Part shown: positions 4,518 to 15,374 of the stretch, piece after piece
Position numbering within the stretch: the first letter of the stretch is position 1
Layout of the letters: the number at the start of each line of letters is the position of its first letter
Assembly: GCA_022566435.1 (NCBI GenBank)
Contig: JADFIX010000006.1
Span: forward strand, 1 to 15,429
Length of the DNA stretch: 15,429 nucleotides
Direction of reading: 5' to 3'
From: Planctomycetota bacterium
GTDB lineage: Bacteria > Planctomycetota > Phycisphaerae > UBA1845
The notes under the pieces: generated by a model
Told to the model about the DNA's origin: nothing
Seen by the model: the letters and a program-made list of their open reading frames with translations, nothing else
Databases searched by the model: none
Made by a program: the position numbers and the translations under genes

Positions 4518-4543
4518 CAAAGGGGACATTCTACTTTTTCTTC
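4518..4543. repeat. Candidate dispersed GGGGACATTCTAC motif at the RAYT 3' end
   Basis: The string AAAGGGGACATTCTACTTTT overlaps the stop codon and poly-lysine tail of the adjacent transposase gene. From memory, near-identical strings occur widely next to RAYT-type transposase genes in unrelated bacteria. In this window I see one copy only, so the repeat status is inferred. Confidence 0.3.
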
Positions 4544-5259
4544 TCCAATCGCGGGCGTCCTTTCGGGCGGAGGGAGGATTCGAGGCCCAGTCGCCCCGCG
4601 GTCCGCTTCTGCCAGGTGGGGTTTCCCCACGGAGTGCCGCGATTGACGCTGGTCCGGATGGCCAGCATTTCCGCTTCGATCATCGGACGGTTGACGGTCT
4701 GTTGCCAATTGCGACCTCGCTCGACGGGCCCGTCGCTTAAGAACTCCGGCGCGTGTTTCCGGCCGCGTTTCCCCTGCCACCGAAGGCTCGACCACGCCCA
4801 ATCCTCCGCCCGCACAACGAGCCTCGCCCGCAGCGGATTTCGCTCCACATAACGTAACACGGTAAGCATGTGGGCATCCTGTTGAATGGGAAACGCCTTA
4901 AAACGCCCCTGCCACACATGCCCGCTCGAATGGTAGTGCGCATGATACCGTCGCACGTGTGACGTCATCAGCCATTGCATCCATCGGCTCAGATCGCCGT
5001 CGTAACGCGGCCAAAGCACCAAATGGAAGTGGTTCGGCATGAGGCAGTAGCCCGGGACGCGCATCGGTAGACGCCGACACGCGGCCGCGATGAGGGCGAT
5101 GAATGCCTCGTAGTCTCTTTCCTTGTGAAACACCTCCGCCCGGGCGTTGCCCCGGTTGATGACGTGGTAACAAATCCCTCCCACAGAGGCTCGCGCGGGT
5201 CTTGGCAATTCAGCGGATTCGATCGCCACTCTTGTTTCCATCGATGCCCGGCTCGCCAT
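4531..5259 (-). CDS. REP-associated tyrosine transposase (RAYT, Y1/IS200-like HUH)
   Basis: This 242-residue HUH-superfamily single-strand DNA transposase belongs to the RAYT group, usually domesticated single-copy enzymes tied to extragenic palindromes. Visible hallmarks are GGICYHVINRGNARAEVF (27-44), the metal-binding HUH pair H77-F-H79 in MPNHFHLVLW, HVWQGRFKAFPI (114-125), and the catalytic tyrosine Y137 in LRYVERNPLRARLV. The basic tail ends KGRPRLEKKK. All key residues are present and the frame is intact, so activity is possible. The start may be the ATG at 5259 or at 5241 (Met7); neither has a strong Shine-Dalgarno. It sits 42 bp downstream of the sulfatase-like gene on the same strand and converges on the M20 gene. 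No transposon ends or target duplications are visible, consistent with RAYTs not being ordinary IS elements. Confidence 0.9.
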   Translation of the reverse strand: MASRASMETRVAIESAELPRPARASVGGICYHVINRGNARAEVFHKERDYEAFIALIAAACRRLPMRVPGYCLMPNHFHLVLWPRYDGDLSRWMQWLMTSHVRRYHAHYHSSGHVWQGRFKAFPIQQDAHMLTVLRYVERNPLRARLVVRAEDWAWSSLRWQGKRGRKHAPEFLSDGPVERGRNWQQTVNRPMIEAEMLAIRTSVNRGTPWGNPTWQKRTAGRLGLESSLRPKGRPRLEKKK

Positions 5260-8892: not shown

Positions 8893-10722
8893 CTACGGCA
8901 TAGTGAACGCGATTAGGAAACGGGCGGAGTCTCGAAGGTCCACGAAAAGGTTCTGCTCGAAGTCGAAGATTTCGCAGCCGCCAGCGTACGGTCCTCCTAC
9001 GGGTCCGGTTGCGCAGTCCGGCCAATATAGGAAGTCGGACAGAGTGAGGAGCATGTCGCCGTCGTGGTCGCCGAGAAGATCGCACTCTTCATTTTGTTCG
9101 TCACAAAGATCGTCTTCGGGGTCGCACGGCGGATCAGCGGATTGACACACAGCGTTCAGGCACATCTCCGCACCGTCGCAAAAGTCTTCGTTTGGACAAG
9201 GCGTGCCGTCCGGAAGACCGTTGCTCAAACAGCTTCCGATACCGTCGCATGTGTCGGCCCCGTCGCAGGGCACGTCTGTGGCGTCACCGCAAGGTGTTCC
9301 GACTGCCCAGTTTCGGTGTGTACAGTTGCCGGCGGAGCATAGGTCGCGCGTGCAATCGTTGCCATCATCGGTACACGGCGAGCCGGGCGCCAACTCGTTG
9401 GTCAGGCAGGTTCCCGCTGCGTCACACGTGTCCGCAAGATTGCAGTCCGTGTCGGTTGGATCGCCACACGCCGTGCCGGACGCCGCGATGTTGGTCAAGC
9501 AGCTTCCCGCTCCGTCACACGTGTCCGCAGCATTGCACTCAACGTCGGTTGGATCACCGCACGCCGTGCCGGGCGACGCGATGTTGGTCGAACAGATCCC
9601 CAGGCCGTCACACGTATCCGCACGATCGCACTCTACGTCGGTTGGATCACCACACGCCGTGCCGGACGGTGCGATGTTGGTCAAGCAGCTTCCTGCGCCG
9701 TCGCACGCGTCCGCGCCGTCGCACTCTACGGCGGACGGATCACCACACGCCGCTCCCTCGATTTGATTAGACCAATCCGTCTGTGACAAGTCGGTATCGC
9801 AAAAACGGCAGCTGTCGGCCGGGTCTTCCTGCCCGTCCGAATAGCACACGCGTGCAATCAGGCAAGATCCCAATGCGATGTCGTTTTCGCAGGCGAAGGT
9901 CTGCTGATTGCAAAGATCCGTCGTGCACGAAAGACCATCGCCGCAATCGCCATCCGATTGGCACGGAAGCGTGATACAAGCCGGCGTAAATACGACGCCG
10001 GCGATCGGAGTTCCGTCGCCTGCCGTCATGAACGAGTTATTCGGATCCTGATCGAAGCCGATCCTATACGTACCTGCCGCGTTGGCCGGAACTTCCAGAA
10101 TCAAACCGCCGAAACTTTTGACTTCACCATCGTCCACAGCGCAGTTTTTCACCGCCGCAACCGCCCAGGCGTAGTCCAGGGTGGGCGTCGCGATTGCCGA
10201 AAAGTGACCGGCGCAACCGGGCATGACGTACCGCGGGGACGAAACGCAAATACCGCCACCCTGCTGCGTGCAGTTCGGATCAAATGGGGGGCTGCACGGC
10301 TCACCGCCGCCGCCGAACTCACACGTGTTTTGGGGCTGATACGCACCGTCAGCGGGGCTTTCCGGCCAACCTTTCGGGTTGAGAATGCCGCCGCTACCGT
10401 TATCGTAACCCGCAGGCAACACCGTAGCCTGAATGGCGCCCAGCGTTGGGCTGCCGAACGCATCGCCCCAGCCCAAGGCCTGCAAGTCTAGGTCTACTTC
10501 GGCCCCACCCGCGGGAAGAATAATTTCCCAGCAGCCCCGATTCACATTGAATTCAGCTTCTACTGGGTCGCCGACGATTCCGGCCGGACTGCCCAATTCC
10601 CCTGTTCGAACCGGAACCCATCGGATTTCCTGCCCACCGAAGGCGATCGTTCCGAACGCGAGTGTTGCGACCATCCACGCCTTTGCCAGGCGATATCCAC
10701 ACAAACCTGAAACCTCGGTCAT
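8893..10722 (-). CDS. Secreted Cys-rich repeat protein with dockerin-like C-terminus
   Basis: This 609-residue exported protein has no catalytic domain that I recognise. The ATG at 10722 is preceded by GGGAGGA 7 nt upstream, better than the ATG 48 nt further up. A signal peptide occupies about residues 1-30 (core AWMVATLAFGTIAFGG). Residues 30-245 form a globular, Gly/Pro-rich domain. Residues 245-320 are Cys-rich (CQSDGDCGDGLSCTTDLC type). Residues 323-532 carry seven tandem units with consensus GTACGDPTDVECxxADTCDG, each with four or more cysteines. The C-terminus has the EF-hand-like loop DHDGDMLLTLSDF and a degenerate partner IFDFEQNLFVDLRDSARF, the paired pattern common at planctomycete secreted-protein ends. 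It is likely a disulfide-rich surface or matrix protein binding calcium. It is the nearest candidate client for the thiol-redox protein at 11227, but that link is inference. Confidence 0.8.
   Translation of the reverse strand: MTEVSGLCGYRLAKAWMVATLAFGTIAFGGQEIRWVPVRTGELGSPAGIVGDPVEAEFNVNRGCWEIILPAGGAEVDLDLQALGWGDAFGSPTLGAIQATVLPAGYDNGSGGILNPKGWPESPADGAYQPQNTCEFGGGGEPCSPPFDPNCTQQGGGICVSSPRYVMPGCAGHFSAIATPTLDYAWAVAAVKNCAVDDGEVKSFGGLILEVPANAAGTYRIGFDQDPNNSFMTAGDGTPIAGVVFTPACITLPCQSDGDCGDGLSCTTDLCNQQTFACENDIALGSCLIARVCYSDGQEDPADSCRFCDTDLSQTDWSNQIEGAACGDPSAVECDGADACDGAGSCLTNIAPSGTACGDPTDVECDRADTCDGLGICSTNIASPGTACGDPTDVECNAADTCDGAGSCLTNIAASGTACGDPTDTDCNLADTCDAAGTCLTNELAPGSPCTDDGNDCTRDLCSAGNCTHRNWAVGTPCGDATDVPCDGADTCDGIGSCLSNGLPDGTPCPNEDFCDGAEMCLNAVCQSADPPCDPEDDLCDEQNEECDLLGDHDGDMLLTLSDFLYWPDCATGPVGGPYAGGCEIFDFEQNLFVDLRDSARFLIAFTMP
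9127..9756 (-). repeat. Tandem repeats, exact 93-bp period at core, encoding 31-residue Cys-rich units
   Basis: Four in-frame 93-bp units cover 9385-9756, with equivalent points at 9455, 9548, 9641 and 9734. They are followed by units of 84 bp (9301-9384), 93 bp (9208-9300) and 81 bp (9127-9207). The string CACACGCCGTGCCGG recurs with few changes. The even spacing and high DNA identity of the four core units suggest recent duplication. Each unit encodes G-T-x-C-G-D-P-T-D-x-x-C plus a D-T-C-D-G-x-G-x-C motif. Confidence 0.9.
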
Positions 10723-10729
10723 CTTCCAT

Positions 10730-10736
10730 TCCTCCC
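10730..10736 (-). promoter_or_regulatory. Ribosome binding site deciding the repeat-protein start
   Basis: GGGAGGA reads on the minus strand, 7 nt before the ATG at 10722-10720. It favours this start over the in-frame ATG at 10770. Confidence 0.7.
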
Positions 10737-10933
10737 ACCCGGAACATTCGCCCCCAATGCGGGATTTCAACGAGTTGAGAGTGCCTCCATTTGAGCATTC
10801 TCTTACTTAATGTACGTGTGCGCCCTGAGGACCCCAGTCCGAGAACTATCGCGACTCTTTGGTATACAGCCCCCCGAGTTACACCGGTTCTTTCATGCTT
10901 CCACCCAGCAGACCGGCATGCGGGCTGTTGATT

Positions 10934-11213: not shown

Positions 11214-11218
11214 AGGAG
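11214..11218 (+). promoter_or_regulatory. Ribosome binding site deciding the start of the selenoprotein gene
   Basis: AGGAG lies 8 nt before the GTG at 11227. Another in-frame GTG at 11218 overlaps this Shine-Dalgarno and so cannot use it, which makes 11227 the better start. Confidence 0.65.
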
Positions 11219-11226
11219 TGCTGAAC

Positions 11227-12714
11227 GTGACGAATTTCTCGCATCGAGTCGTCCGTATTTCCATTTTCACCGGTCTTCTCGTATGGGTGCCTCTTTCGGC
11301 GAGCGAGAGTCGTGGCGACGATCCGCCGGTGGTCGGTACAAGAGTCGGACAAATCCACCCCGATTTCCTGTTGCCCAAGCTAGACGGCAAATTCGGGCGA
11401 TTGTCGGACTATCGCGGCAAAAAGGTGCTGCTCATTCATTTCGCGTCGTGGTGAGCCGGGTGCCGCCGCGTCCTGCCCGTGTGGCAGGAAACCGTCAAGC
11501 TGTTCGTCGATTCCGGAAAACTGGTCGTCGTGGGTGTCGCGCAGGAGCAACATCCGCAGCGGGCGGCGCTTTATGCGCAGTGGCGACGGTTCGATTGGCC
11601 GATCTTCGTGGATTCGCTCAACCTTCTCGATCTTGACGTCGTGCCCGTGCCCGTCGCGATCGACGAGCGGGGCGTTGTTCGGCATGAATCGATTCGGCCT
11701 CGACAGTTCGTCAAGAAGTTTCTCGAAATCGATTACCCGCCGGCGGATTCGAAACCACCGGCGATCACCTCTCGGCCGAAAATCGATCAGCTTCGTGCGG
11801 ACGCCGAGCGGGCGCAGACAGCGGAGGCGTGGCGAGAGCTCGGCGACGCATTTTTCCTCGAGGGAGGCAAAGGCACAGTGTATGGCGCCGCGAAAGCGTA
11901 TGAGCAAGCGATCGCCGCCGATTCGACCGACGCACGAGCGCATTTCCGCCTCGGCGTAGTTTTACGAAATCGATACGAATCCGCAGAGCTTCGAAAAGAA
12001 GGTGACGCGCAACGTGCGGTGGAGCATTGGGGATTCGCGTTGTCTCTGAATCCCAACCAGTACATCTGGCGGCGGCGGATTCAGCAGTACGGACCGCGCC
12101 TGGACAAGCCGTACAACTTCTACTTTTGGGTTGAACAGGCCCGCAAGGAAATCAAAGCTCGAGGTGAGACGCCCGTGCCGCTTGCGGTCGAGCCCGCCGG
12201 CTCGGAACTGGCGCCGCCGGCCAAGGGAAGAGGCGCCGACGGCGACCGTTCGGCGGCATCGGTCGCCACGTCTGCCCCGTCGTGTCGCGAAACGAACGAG
12301 TCTCTGCAGCGCGACGACCGGTCGTACGTTGCCATTGAATCCATCGTGACGCCGGCTCGCGTTCGCCCCGGGCAGCGCGTTCGTGTCCGCGTCGGGTTCC
12401 AACTGAATCCCAAGACACGACCCTACTGGAACAACGAAGCGCGTGAACTGGCTATCTGTCTCGACCCGCCGCCCGAATTGTCGTTGGGCGAAGGGACTCT
12501 CGTCTTTCCCAATCCTTCAATGGCCGAGACGCAAGAAGATCGGGCGGTCGAGTTTGAAGTCACGATCGCGGACGAAGCGCAGCCCGGCATCGTTTCCATA
12601 CCCGCCTACGCACTCTACTACGTCTGCGAAAACAAGGGCGGAAAGTGCCGCTACCTCAGAAAGGACTTCGCGGTTTCTATCGAAATCGATCCAACGGCCC
12701 CGACGTTACGGTGA
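11227..12714 (+). CDS. Predicted selenoprotein: TlpA/thioredoxin domain (UxxC), TPR-like helices and DsbD-N-like domain
   Basis: This is read as one 495-residue exported redox protein with in-frame TGA at 11452-11454 decoded as selenocysteine (U76). It begins at GTG 11227 with a signal peptide (core ISIFTGLLVWVPLSA, 11-25). A TlpA-like thioredoxin domain follows (about 36-165): HPDFLLPKLDGKFGRLSDYR, then KKVLLIHFASW-U-AGC-RRVLP. U76 is exactly where the first active-site Cys of CxxC should be, and C79 is the second. P142 in VVPVPVAIDERG is the likely cis-Pro. Residues 197-288 look like two TPRs. Residues 366-488 resemble the DsbD N-terminal/DsbC-corrector domain, with PYWNN and VFPNPS motifs and a C467-x6-C474 pair. 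The protein probably passes electrons between selenol and disulfide in the periplasm. The alternative is a nonsense mutation in a Cys codon; the SECIS-like hairpin and intact downstream frame argue against it. Pnt genes converge on it. Confidence 0.8.
11452..11454 (+). other. In-frame TGA, predicted selenocysteine codon
   Basis: The TGA falls in the thioredoxin active-site motif, giving FASW-U-A-G-C. The frame is open for 75 codons before it and 419 after it, with family-matching sequence on both sides. Confidence 0.8.
11471..11489 (+). promoter_or_regulatory. Candidate bacterial SECIS hairpin
   Basis: TCCTGCC (11471-11477) pairs perfectly with GGCAGGA (11483-11489), leaving the five-base loop CGTGT, which contains GU. 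The stem starts 16 nt after the TGA, and the first loop G is 25 nt from it. Known bacterial SECIS elements are short hairpins just downstream of UGA with a G, usually GU, in the apical loop at roughly 16-37 nt. It would be bound by SelB with Sec-tRNA. It lies wholly inside the coding frame. Confidence 0.75.
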
Positions 12715-12734: not shown

Positions 12735-14204
12735 CTACGACTCCTTCACTGCGGCCACGAGTTCGACGAAGGCCTTCTTCCCGTCGGAGAAGAACATCAG
12801 CGTATGGTCCATGGCGAACAGCGGGTTGGGGATGCCCGCGAAGCCGGGACTCAGGCTGCGCTTGATGACCACGACCGTGCGACACTTGTCCACGTCGATA
12901 ATCGGCATGCCCGCGATCGGTGACGACGGATCGGTCCGCGCCACCGGATTGACCACGTCGTTCGCGCCCAGAACCAGAGCGACATCCACCTGCGCCAGTT
13001 CCGGGTTGATGTCGTCCATTTCCCGTAGCTTGTCGTAGGGGATGTCCGCCTCGGCCAATAGCACGTTCATGTGACCCGGCATCCGCCCCGCGACGGGGTG
13101 AATGGCGAAGTCGACATTGATCCCCCGTGACTCGAGCAGGGTTGCCAGATCTCGCACCGCATGTTGCGCCTGGGACACGGCCATGCCATAACCCGGTACG
13201 ATGACCACGCGCTGCGCACCGTCGAAGAGCATGGCCACCTCATCCGCCGACGTGGCTTTGATTTTGCCTTCGTATATTTCGTCGGCACTGGGTCCGTCCG
13301 CGGTGGGGCCGAGCCTGGCGAACATGACATTGCCCAGCGAACGATTCATGGCCTTGCACATGATCTTGGTGAGAATCAAGCCCGATGCCCCGACCAAGGA
13401 GCCGGCGATGATCAAGACGTTGTTATTGATGACAAACCCGGTCGCACACGCCGCGAGTCCGGAGTAAGAGTTCAACAGCGCGATGACCACCGGCATGTCC
13501 GCACCCCCAATGGGGATGGTGATCAGAATGCCCAGGGCACCGGCCACGACGACCAGAATCGCGTACCACGCCACCGTATCGGGATGCTTTACGATCAAGA
13601 CGCAAAGGACAATGGCAAGGACGAAAAGGGCGCCGTTGATGAAATGTCGCCCGGGGAGCAGCATGGATTTGCTCGTCCAGTACTTCTTCCCGCGAAACGT
13701 AAACGTCAGCTCTTTCAGCTTGCCCGCCGCGACAATGCTACCAAACAGGGTCACCGAGCCGATGATGCCCGACAACGCTACGGCGATCATGAACTGGAGC
13801 CCACCGTGCCCCGCGGTCTGCGTTGCGACTGCCGTTGCATCTTCCGCGACCTGCGATCGGTTGATGGACATGATCAACTCGCCGCCAGCGACCAGGAATG
13901 ACGCCGCCCCGCCGAAGCCGTTGAAAAGGCCGACCATCTGAGGCATTCCGGTCATTTCAACCGTCAGGGCCAGATAGGCCCCCGCCGCCGTGCCGACGAT
14001 CAAGCCGGCGAAGATCCACGTCCAGGACATGATCCCCCCGCCCCAGAGCGTCGCGACGATGGCGATCAGCATCGCCACCGCGCCAATGAGGTTGCCCCGC
14101 ACCGCGGTACGTGGATGGGTCAACCCCTTGAGTCCACGAATAAACAGGATGGATGCCAGCAGGTAGGCGGCGTTCTGAATGATCTTGACCGTTGATTCTT
14201 CCAC
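12735..14204 (-). CDS. pntB: NAD(P) transhydrogenase subunit beta
   Basis: This 489-residue PntB belongs to the proton-translocating transhydrogenase, which uses the proton gradient to reduce NADP+ with NADH. The N-terminal half has about nine hydrophobic segments (dII), including LTVEMTGMPQMVGLFNGFGG (80-99), a hallmark stretch. The C-terminal NADP(H)-binding domain dIII has VIVPGYGMAVSQAQHAVRDL, then HPVAGRMPGHMNVLLAEADI, then LGANDVVNPVARTDPSSPIA and FAGIPNPLF. All are canonical. The GTG start at 14204 follows the pntAB stop by 3 nt, suggesting translational coupling; the Shine-Dalgarno is weak. The gene itself looks intact. It is the last gene of the pntAA-pntAB-pntB operon and converges on the selenoprotein gene, with 20 bp between stops. 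Confidence 0.95.
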   Translation of the reverse strand: MEESTVKIIQNAAYLLASILFIRGLKGLTHPRTAVRGNLIGAVAMLIAIVATLWGGGIMSWTWIFAGLIVGTAAGAYLALTVEMTGMPQMVGLFNGFGGAASFLVAGGELIMSINRSQVAEDATAVATQTAGHGGLQFMIAVALSGIIGSVTLFGSIVAAGKLKELTFTFRGKKYWTSKSMLLPGRHFINGALFVLAIVLCVLIVKHPDTVAWYAILVVVAGALGILITIPIGGADMPVVIALLNSYSGLAACATGFVINNNVLIIAGSLVGASGLILTKIMCKAMNRSLGNVMFARLGPTADGPSADEIYEGKIKATSADEVAMLFDGAQRVVIVPGYGMAVSQAQHAVRDLATLLESRGINVDFAIHPVAGRMPGHMNVLLAEADIPYDKLREMDDINPELAQVDVALVLGANDVVNPVARTDPSSPIAGMPIIDVDKCRTVVVIKRSLSPGFAGIPNPLFAMDHTLMFFSDGKKAFVELVAAVKES

Positions 14205-14207
14205 GAC

Positions 14208-14492
14208 TTAGCCCTTCTTGCGGAACATCGCCAGCATGCGGTGCGACACGAGGAATCCACCAACCACGTTCACGGTAGCCAGCGCCACTGCCAGGAACCC
14301 CAGAGTCGTCGACCAGAAGCCCTCTCCGGCGCCGGCGGCGATCAATGCCCCGACCACGGTGATACCGGAAATGGCGTTGGACCCCGACATCAACGGCGTG
14401 TGCAAAGTCGGCGGCACTTTGGTAATGATCTCGAACCCGATGAAAATCGCGAGTACGAAGATGGTCAGTAGAGTAATGAAGTTCGCTTCCAT
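14208..14492 (-). CDS. pntAB: NAD(P) transhydrogenase subunit alpha, membrane part (alpha-2)
   Basis: This 94-residue protein corresponds to the C-terminal membrane segment of PntA, encoded separately as in Rhodospirillum-type split transhydrogenases. It has three hydrophobic helices: LLTIFVLAIFIGFEIITKVP (8-27), ISGITVVGALIAAG and FLAVALATVNVVGGFLV. It carries the family motif PPTLHTPLMSGSNAISGI (27-44). It forms the proton channel with PntB. The ATG at 14492 has a very strong Shine-Dalgarno, AAGGAGG, 5 nt upstream (plus 14498-14504). It directly abuts the stop of pntAA and sits 3 nt before pntB, so it is a compact operon. Confidence 0.95.
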   Translation of the reverse strand: MEANFITLLTIFVLAIFIGFEIITKVPPTLHTPLMSGSNAISGITVVGALIAAGAGEGFWSTTLGFLAVALATVNVVGGFLVSHRMLAMFRKKG

Positions 14493-15374
14493 TTAGGCCT
14501 CCTTCTCGCTGGGAGAGGCTTCGTTGGTTATGCCGAGCAATTCCCGGATCTGGGGGTGCATGACTTCGCCGTCGCGGGTCAGCAACGTGCCGGCATGGAT
14601 TTCGTTTTCCATATCGATCGCCAGCTGACCGTCTTTGGTCAGTTCTTTCAGGAAATTCGTACAGTTCTTGGCGAACATCTGACTGGCGTGGAAGGGCACG
14701 GTGCTGGGCAGGTCGGCCGGCCCAAGAATCGTCACCCCGTGTTTGACCACGGTCTTGTCCAGTTCGGTCAGCTCGCAATTGCCGCCGCGCTCCGCCGCCA
14801 AATCCACGATCACCGAACCGGGCATCATGCCCTTGACCATGTCGGCCGTGACGATCACCGGCGACTTTCTTCCCGGAATCGCCGCCGTGGTGACGACGAT
14901 GTGGCTCTCGGCCACCACCCTGGTCATCAATTCGCGTTGTTTCTTCAGGAATTCCTCGCCCATGTCCTTGGCGTAGCCACCCTTGTCCTGAGCGTCTCCG
15001 GCGTCCAATTCCATCTCGACGAACTTGGCGCCGAGGCTTTCGATCTGCTCTTTCACTTCCGCACGTACGTCGTAAGCGTGCACGATCGCGCCTAGGCGCT
15101 TCGCGGTGGCGATCGCCTGCAACCCCGCGACGCCCGCACCTACGATCAAGACGTGCGCCGGGCGGACCGTTCCGGCGGCCGTCATGAACATTGGGAACAT
15201 ACGCGGCGCCACCTCCGCCGCGACCAGCACGGCCTGGGTCGCAGCGCCCTGGTCCGAGCGATTCGACTGACTGTTCTTCCGCAGGCGTGTGCTCGGTGAC
15301 CTCCGGCTCGATGATCTCGGGGACGTCCTCGGTGTACCGCGTTCGTGTGCGGTTACAACGTTGCAGCGCCCCAC
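14493..15374 (-). CDS. pntAA: NAD(P) transhydrogenase subunit alpha, part 1, 5'-truncated and chimeric
   Basis: The family match covers only the second half of the NAD(H)-binding domain dI. It begins at AVLVAAEVAPRMFPMFMTAA (about 15233) and includes the NAD-binding VLIVGAGVAGLQAIATAKRL, then YDVRAEVKEQIESLGAKF, then VIVDLAAERGGNCELTELDK. The full subunit is about 380 residues; roughly the first 130-140 are missing, including the Arg-Gln-Asp loop needed for hydride transfer. The frame stays open to a GTG at 15374, but residues 1-47 (MGRCNVVTAHERG onward) match nothing in PntAA and are read out of frame from an IS66 zinc-finger segment. A stop lies just upstream in this frame. As given, the product should be inactive, even though pntAB and pntB are intact. 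The cause is either insertion/deletion involving an IS66 element or an assembly join. Confidence 0.85.
   Translation of the reverse strand: MGRCNVVTAHERGTPRTSPRSSSRRSPSTRLRKNSQSNRSDQGAATQAVLVAAEVAPRMFPMFMTAAGTVRPAHVLIVGAGVAGLQAIATAKRLGAIVHAYDVRAEVKEQIESLGAKFVEMELDAGDAQDKGGYAKDMGEEFLKKQRELMTRVVAESHIVVTTAAIPGRKSPVIVTADMVKGMMPGSVIVDLAAERGGNCELTELDKTVVKHGVTILGPADLPSTVPFHASQMFAKNCTNFLKELTKDGQLAIDMENEIHAGTLLTRDGEVMHPQIRELLGITNEASPSEKEA

Follow-up and report, generated by a model that had tools for sequence, protein, structure and literature searches.

A predicted UxxC selenoprotein of Planctomycetota combining a ResA/TlpA-like thioredoxin domain with a DsbD-alpha-like C-terminal domain

Results and Discussion

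In this study, we found that the gene at 11227-12714 on the forward strand of the window, which is the whole 15,429-nucleotide stretch of Planctomycetota DNA that was analyzed, is predicted to encode a selenocysteine (Sec)-containing UxxC thiol-disulfide oxidoreductase (probability of about 0.95, judged from sequence). Sec decoding at its TGA 11452 appears near certain. A UxxC selenoprotein had been predicted in the initial annotation of this DNA, and the prediction is supported by the same TGA in 63 of 63 loci, a hairpin conserved at synonymous sites, selD, a tRNA-Sec-like sequence, and other UxxC frames. The gene contains a single internal TGA (11452-11454), codon 76 of its 495, and reads HFASW-U-AGC-RRVLP around it. 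As the initial annotation had claimed, this TGA lies at the first CxxC position of a TlpA-like frame, where 75 codons precede it and 419 follow. The claimed resolving cysteine C79 is present in the window and is Cys in 63/63 Sec forms. The conserved cis-Pro column, however, is P140 and not P142 as first assigned. In relatives, homology extends to, or near, residue 495, and the TPR-like and DsbD-alpha-like C-terminal parts go beyond the earlier reading. The mapped features are listed in Table 1.

Table 1. Positions of the predicted selenoprotein gene and its parts in the window.
Feature	Position	Strand	Basis or remark
Shine-Dalgarno-like AGGAG	11214..11218	+	8 nt before GTG 11227; direct sequence reading
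Selenoprotein gene, 495 residues with TGA 11452 as Sec (predicted)	11227..12714	+	start GTG; terminal TGA 12712-12714
N-terminal signal-peptide-like segment, residues 1-34	11227..11328	+	hydrophobic stretch by eye
ResA/TlpA-like thioredoxin domain, residues 36-170	11332..11736	+	
TGA as selenocysteine 76 (predicted), first position of UxxC	11452..11454	+	63/63 loci
Resolving cysteine C79	11461..11463	+	C in 63/63 Sec forms
SECIS-like hairpin, stem 11471-11477 / 11483-11489, loop CGUGU 11478-11482	11471..11489	+	pair counts, synonymous-codon null
Conserved cis-Pro P140	11644..11646	+	P in 60/63 Sec forms; invariant in 22 aligned members
TPR-like helical region, residues 186-296, conserved block YIWRRRIQQYGPRLDKPY	11782..12114	+	Pfam TPR_11, conserved columns, model helices
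C-terminal Ig-like domain, DsbD-alpha-like, residues 361-495	12307..12711	+	hhalign, model; under Pfam cut-off
C467, first Cys of C-terminal CX6C pair	12625..12627	+	pair in 55/59 Sec forms with region
C474, second Cys of C-terminal CX6C pair	12646..12648	+	

Conservation of the TGA Codon

The TGA was found at the first codon of UxxC in all 63 distinct loci, the window included, and each locus carries the motif [FY]ASWU-x-GC-R, where x is A, V or Q. Five duplicates (L015, L016, L018, L019, and L022) were removed from this set; L048, a C-terminal piece only, and L051-L053, for which no match reached E 1e-15, are outside the count. The initial annotation had proposed an alignment of homologs at the Sec column and had raised a miscall at 11454 as an objection. 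Since the alignment gave the Sec codon in 63/63 distinct loci, TGA 11452 is attributable neither to chance nor to a read error. A family homolog with TGA, its motif confirmed each time, occurs in 19 of 120 related genomes (own included). Of 392 genomes drawn from the phylum, with the own one among them, 42 matched at E 1e-25 or better, all 42 with TGA and a confirmed motif. Scanning named genome contigs yielded nine loci, eight of which belong to the family (Planctomycetota, Phycisphaerae, Hydrogenedentota, and Sumerlaeota). In one Hydrogenedentota MAG (L017), a second UxxC-like frame, RSANWUPYCKRQLVQLQKD, lies close to the homolog.

It had also been predicted that routine annotation would miss the full protein. 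This held among the matches listed: none of the 120 database proteins listed of 2535 matches covers more than 83% of the query, and in each of the ten inspected among them the start lies downstream of the TGA. When residues 36-205 were searched by themselves, 64 database matches were returned. In two of these, P0122 (82% of the residues covered) and P0123 (96%), Ser occupies the Sec column. The remaining 62 cover at most 73% (six inspected), which fits protein starts after the TGA. One database protein, P0005, is near-identical to the window in its C-terminal part and not in its N-terminal part, and is perhaps a chimera or recombinant.

A SECIS-like Hairpin Downstream of the TGA

The 63 sequences were compared ungapped from the TGA, with the T of TGA as position 0. 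The common stem is formed by positions 19-25 and 31-37 around a five-base loop. As a null for the pairs, codons were redrawn in 1000 draws from the gene's own synonymous codons. Pair 23-33, in which a codon's wobble base pairs with the first base of a different codon, was present in 63/63 loci (null 28.1 ± 3.7; 0/1000) and occurs as five types, G-C, G-U, A-U, U-A, and C-G. Pair 21-35 was found in 62 of 63 loci (null 56.1; 1/1000) and pair 20-36 in 47 of 63 (null 41.9; 19/1000). Pairs 19-37 and 18-38 gave no excess over the synonymous null across the 63 loci, while pairs 25-31, 24-32, and 22-34 are set by the protein sequence and are uninformative. A stem of at least 5 bp forms in 62/63 loci (null 25.2, maximum 39), L109 being the exception, and a G stands within the first two loop positions in 63/63. 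These results indicate that the putative hairpin downstream of the TGA is maintained by selection at synonymous sites.

The hairpin of the window has 7 bp, a 5-nt loop (CGUGU), 23 nt from TGA to loop, and an energy of -12.0 kcal/mol (22-nt piece). It lies within the ranges of the bSECIS model as printed in PMC13188914: a loop of 3-9 nt with a G in its first two positions, a stem of 4-16 bp, a distance of 16-37 nt from the UGA, and an MFE of -7.5 or lower. An energy of -7.5 kcal/mol or lower was obtained in 50/63 loci. Folded alone, the window stretch showed no stability beyond that of dinucleotide shuffles (z +0.61), and the signal emerged only from the 63-locus comparison. Among non-Sec relatives, a stem of at least 5 bp is still present in 2/8 (L042 and L044).

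Selenocysteine Machinery in the MAG and Related Genomes

The source MAG is 63.6% complete and consists of 939 contigs. Its selD (L111, contig C674) scored 369.8 bits against a cut-off of 125 and has its own in-frame TGA in the motif CAGUAGK (Sec-type). No selA or selB was over the cut-off in this 63.6%-complete MAG, and EF-Tu, which bacteria need, was also absent from the search results in it. A tRNA-Sec-like match on contig C151 (L007:1501-1618) reached 42.2 bits, under the Rfam cut-off of 47, and has the anticodon loop CUUCAAA (UCA). Approximately 70 nt of its 3' part are close to the tRNA-Sec of three relatives, while the 5' part is unlike them, and ARAGORN makes no call on the sequence. 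The sel-gene search proposed in the initial annotation was thus answered in part for the own MAG, by selD and by a selC-like sequence below the cut-off, with selA and selB not over the cut-off. A lack of selB, selC, and selD, which had been named as evidence against Sec, is countered by the Sec-type selD and the tRNA-Sec-like sequence. In the window, there was no Rfam match at the gathering threshold and no tRNA by ARAGORN.

The MAG has three more in-frame TGA codons at UxxC, in L114 (C738), L116 (C722), and L117 (C457), with the motifs FWAHGUPPC, FWASWUPPC, and YRAHWUPFC, respectively. By these motifs, L114, L116, and L117 are likely to be further selenoproteins.

Over the cut-off in the 120 genomes were selA in 94, selB in 96, and selD in 102; tRNA-Sec was over the cut-off in 30 of 40 relatives' genomes, in one of them (G022) barely. 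In the 19 TGA carriers, selB was over the cut-off in 14, selA in 15, and selD in 18. Twelve of the 120 genomes had none of selA, selB, and selD over the cut-off, and the TGA gene occurred in 0/12, which could be due to chance with 19 carriers in 120.

Domain Organization of the Protein

Residues 1-34 have a pLDDT below 50 in the structure model. Pfam placed AhpC-TSA and Redoxin over residues 40-130, above the cut-off, and TPR at 220-246. The thioredoxin (Trx) fold, the active site at a helix start, and the cis-Pro of ResA/TlpA-like proteins were all found. Pfam TPR_11 was detected in 13/22 members, and the TPR-like region 186-296 forms helices in the model.

Residues 361-495 were modeled as an Ig-like sandwich with a pLDDT of 97.4. 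A comparison of 32 members with 30 DsbD_N domains from relatives by hhalign gave a match of 95.9% probability that spans 123 columns and places C467 and C474 in register with both DsbD_N cysteines. The score was 54.8, compared to 16.6 or less for 60 column-permuted decoys and 11.2 for the reversed profile. Against Pfam DsbD_N (PF11412), 3/32 members matched at E ≤1, two of them with 17.4 and 15.3 bits (gathering 25). Pfam gave nothing usable on the window's own C-terminal part, and a PDB sequence search with the C-terminal profile gave only E 0.13 or worse. In Foldseek, DsbD-alpha appeared at rank 24 (1jpe, E 2.8e-3) and rank 28 (1l6p), amid unrelated Ig-like domains, and therefore the fold alone does not decide the identity of this domain. 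The 50 VIA matches listed were generic Ig-like folds, with DsbD-alpha not among them. Taken from these alignments, the predicted C-terminal domain resembles DsbD-alpha. The MAG encodes a DsbD (C252) with two DsbD_N domains over the cut-off, and DsbD_N was over the cut-off in 57/60 genomes.

Relatives Lacking Selenocysteine

Ten sequences cover the site without TGA (L042, L043, L044, L046, L047, L049, L050, L098, P0122, and P0123). Their residue at the Sec column is Ser in five, His in three, Asp in one, and Cys in one. CxxC at the site was found in 0/73 sequences examined (63 Sec and 10 non-Sec). L043 has TGC at the Sec codon, but its resolving Cys is gone. Relatives with TGC or TGT had been named in the initial annotation as evidence against Sec; none of those examined pairs TGC or TGT with the resolving Cys.

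Only the branching order on starred branches of the tree was used; its bootstrap is unsettled, some rows are long, and its label-change table omits unlabelled rows. On starred branches, the Sec form L040 groups with P0123, L042, and L044, and the Sec form L039 groups with P0122. Therefore, Sec was probably replaced more than once in the family, if it was never regained. L040, L042, and L044 belong to the same genus, and the Ser forms L042 and L044 are 48% and 53% identical to L040. Since selB is over the cut-off in all three genomes, the loss of Sec from the gene took place with the machinery still in the genome.

The C-terminal Cys pair is present in 55/59 Sec forms with the region, compared to 0/8 non-Sec relatives (Fisher p 7.6e-8, kinship ignored). 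Left out of these counts are the Sec loci L033, L104, L107, and L109 and the non-Sec sequences L044 and L047, which have no residues in the C-terminal region. L090, L095, L101, and L110 are Sec forms with the region but without the pair, and the non-Sec P0123 retains one of the two Cys; therefore, the coupling of the two sites is imperfect.

Alternative Readings of the TGA

The TGA could be a nonsense mutation or a miscall in a dead gene. The MAG, at 939 contigs and 64% completeness, is fragmented, and database proteins contain the downstream part only (among the matches listed), as this reading would have it. However, it is made extremely improbable by the same TGA codon in 63/63 loci, a downstream part that is 89% identical to P0002, motifs conserved on either side of the TGA, and conservation of both TGA and hairpin across families of the phylum. 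The UGA could instead be read as Trp or another amino acid through a code change or suppression, since the frame is open across the TGA and the own MAG, which is 64% complete, yielded neither selA nor selB over the cut-off. This is highly improbable in view of the location of the TGA at the catalytic Cys position of ResA/TlpA proteins, the SECIS-like hairpin after it, the Sec-type selD in the MAG, and the three other TGA frames that are also UxxC. Nine other frames in the window end with TAA or TAG and need no TGA read-through, although this point is weak because the frames were cut at stops. A different possibility is that the UGA acts as a true stop, or as a regulated switch, and that a 411-residue C-terminal protein is made from a start after it. 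GTG 11479 does open a 411-aa frame, and such downstream-only proteins are listed in databases, but neither of the two products would contain the active site, even though conservation of [FY]ASWU-x-GC extends to both sides of the TGA. In addition, no Shine-Dalgarno-like sequence was seen by eye close before 11479, and this GTG falls within the hairpin loop. Two separate products are therefore very unlikely, and Sec decoding is the preferred reading.

Proposed Mechanism and the C-Terminal Cysteine Pair

Under Sec decoding, SelB with Sec-tRNA would insert Sec at UGA 11452. The protein would be exported. The Sec selenolate may then attack substrate disulfides, and C79 would resolve the intermediate. 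The UxxC site and the CX6C pair, both on one chain, may exchange electrons in one direction or the other. The DsbD of the genome would be a likely membrane partner, feeding the relay or fed by it, and the TPR-like part may hold a client protein.

An internal relay linking UxxC to the C-terminal CX6C pair stands at roughly even odds on the sequence comparisons. It is supported because both sites are lost together in non-Sec relatives, and the four Sec forms that lack the C-terminal pair argue against its being universal. The relay part of our explanation, and only this part, competes with a Sec enzyme that has no internal relay, in which the UxxC domain acts alone, the C-terminal domain is structural or partner-binding, and its Cys pair is a structural disulfide. 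The four pairless Sec forms and the many non-redox Ig-like matches returned by the fold searches are in its favor. However, 8/8 non-Sec relatives that retain the region have an incomplete pair or none, and both Cys line up in the profile match to DsbD_N, which leaves an enzyme of this kind a chance just short of even. We tentatively extend the relay to a Sec-obligate, soluble, DsbD-like form, in which the Sec domain and the DsbD-alpha-like Cys pair make up one redox unit and Cys is no substitute; this is plausible, but we would not bet on it. If Cys cannot replace Sec, both redox sites would decay upon Sec loss, leaving a non-redox scaffold.

Relation to Known Systems

Compared to ResA, TlpA, and DsbE (CcmG), the window protein has Sec for the first Cys and a long C-terminal extension. 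In comparison with DsbD (alpha and gamma domains), the C-terminal domain aligns with DsbD_N by profile, with both Cys in register. Unlike DsbD, the protein has no membrane domain in the model and the Pfam scan, and its Trx domain is ResA-like with Sec. Its order is Trx, TPR, and alpha-like, unlike the layout of DsbD. The NCBIfam model NF041054 (WAxxUGC_long) likewise describes ResA-like proteins and is named for a Sec motif. It matches window residues 44-285 and 22/22 members scanned; however, the score of the window is 77.6 bits, with the cut-off at 300, and the motif named in the model is UGC, whereas that of the window is UxGC. The window protein reaches no NCBIfam cut-off.

The UxxC Trx-fold selenoproteins in Table 1 of PMC13188914 include the Redoxin family PF08534, thiol-disulfide isomerase-like cd02966, and UGC-containing TlpA. 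These likewise have Sec for the first Cys of the Trx-fold active site. The descriptions printed there name no TPR or DsbD-alpha-like part, although the comparison is by description only and overlap is possible. Selenoproteins are also described in the text of PMC4807772 in Planctomycetes isolated from a red alga. Searches of the literature outside subscription journals and supplementary files found no paper naming a selenium-only TlpA-like family. UxxC Trx-fold selenoproteins as such are already known.

By their published descriptions, Cys/Sec-pair selenoprotein finders and the final filter of deep-Sep depend on Cys homologs. Since no Cys form was found among the sequences examined, methods based on Cys homologs may miss this TlpA-like selenoprotein family. 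If Sec is truly irreplaceable, the family would be a naturally occurring system in which to study what makes selenium necessary for some enzymes. The Sec form L040 and the Ser forms L042 and L044, all of one genus, would allow a direct comparison.

Gene Neighborhood

NAD(P) transhydrogenase genes (12738-15374, reverse strand) adjoin the selenoprotein gene on the opposite strand. A repetitive, Cys-rich frame of 625 aa at 8896-10770 (reverse strand) had no Pfam match at E 1e-5, and a protein with an IS200-like Y1 transposase domain is encoded at 4534-5259 (reverse strand). When the gene neighbors of the window and ten other loci were compared by eye, common neighbors were found only between L018 and L019 (G036 and G009), which are from one genus.
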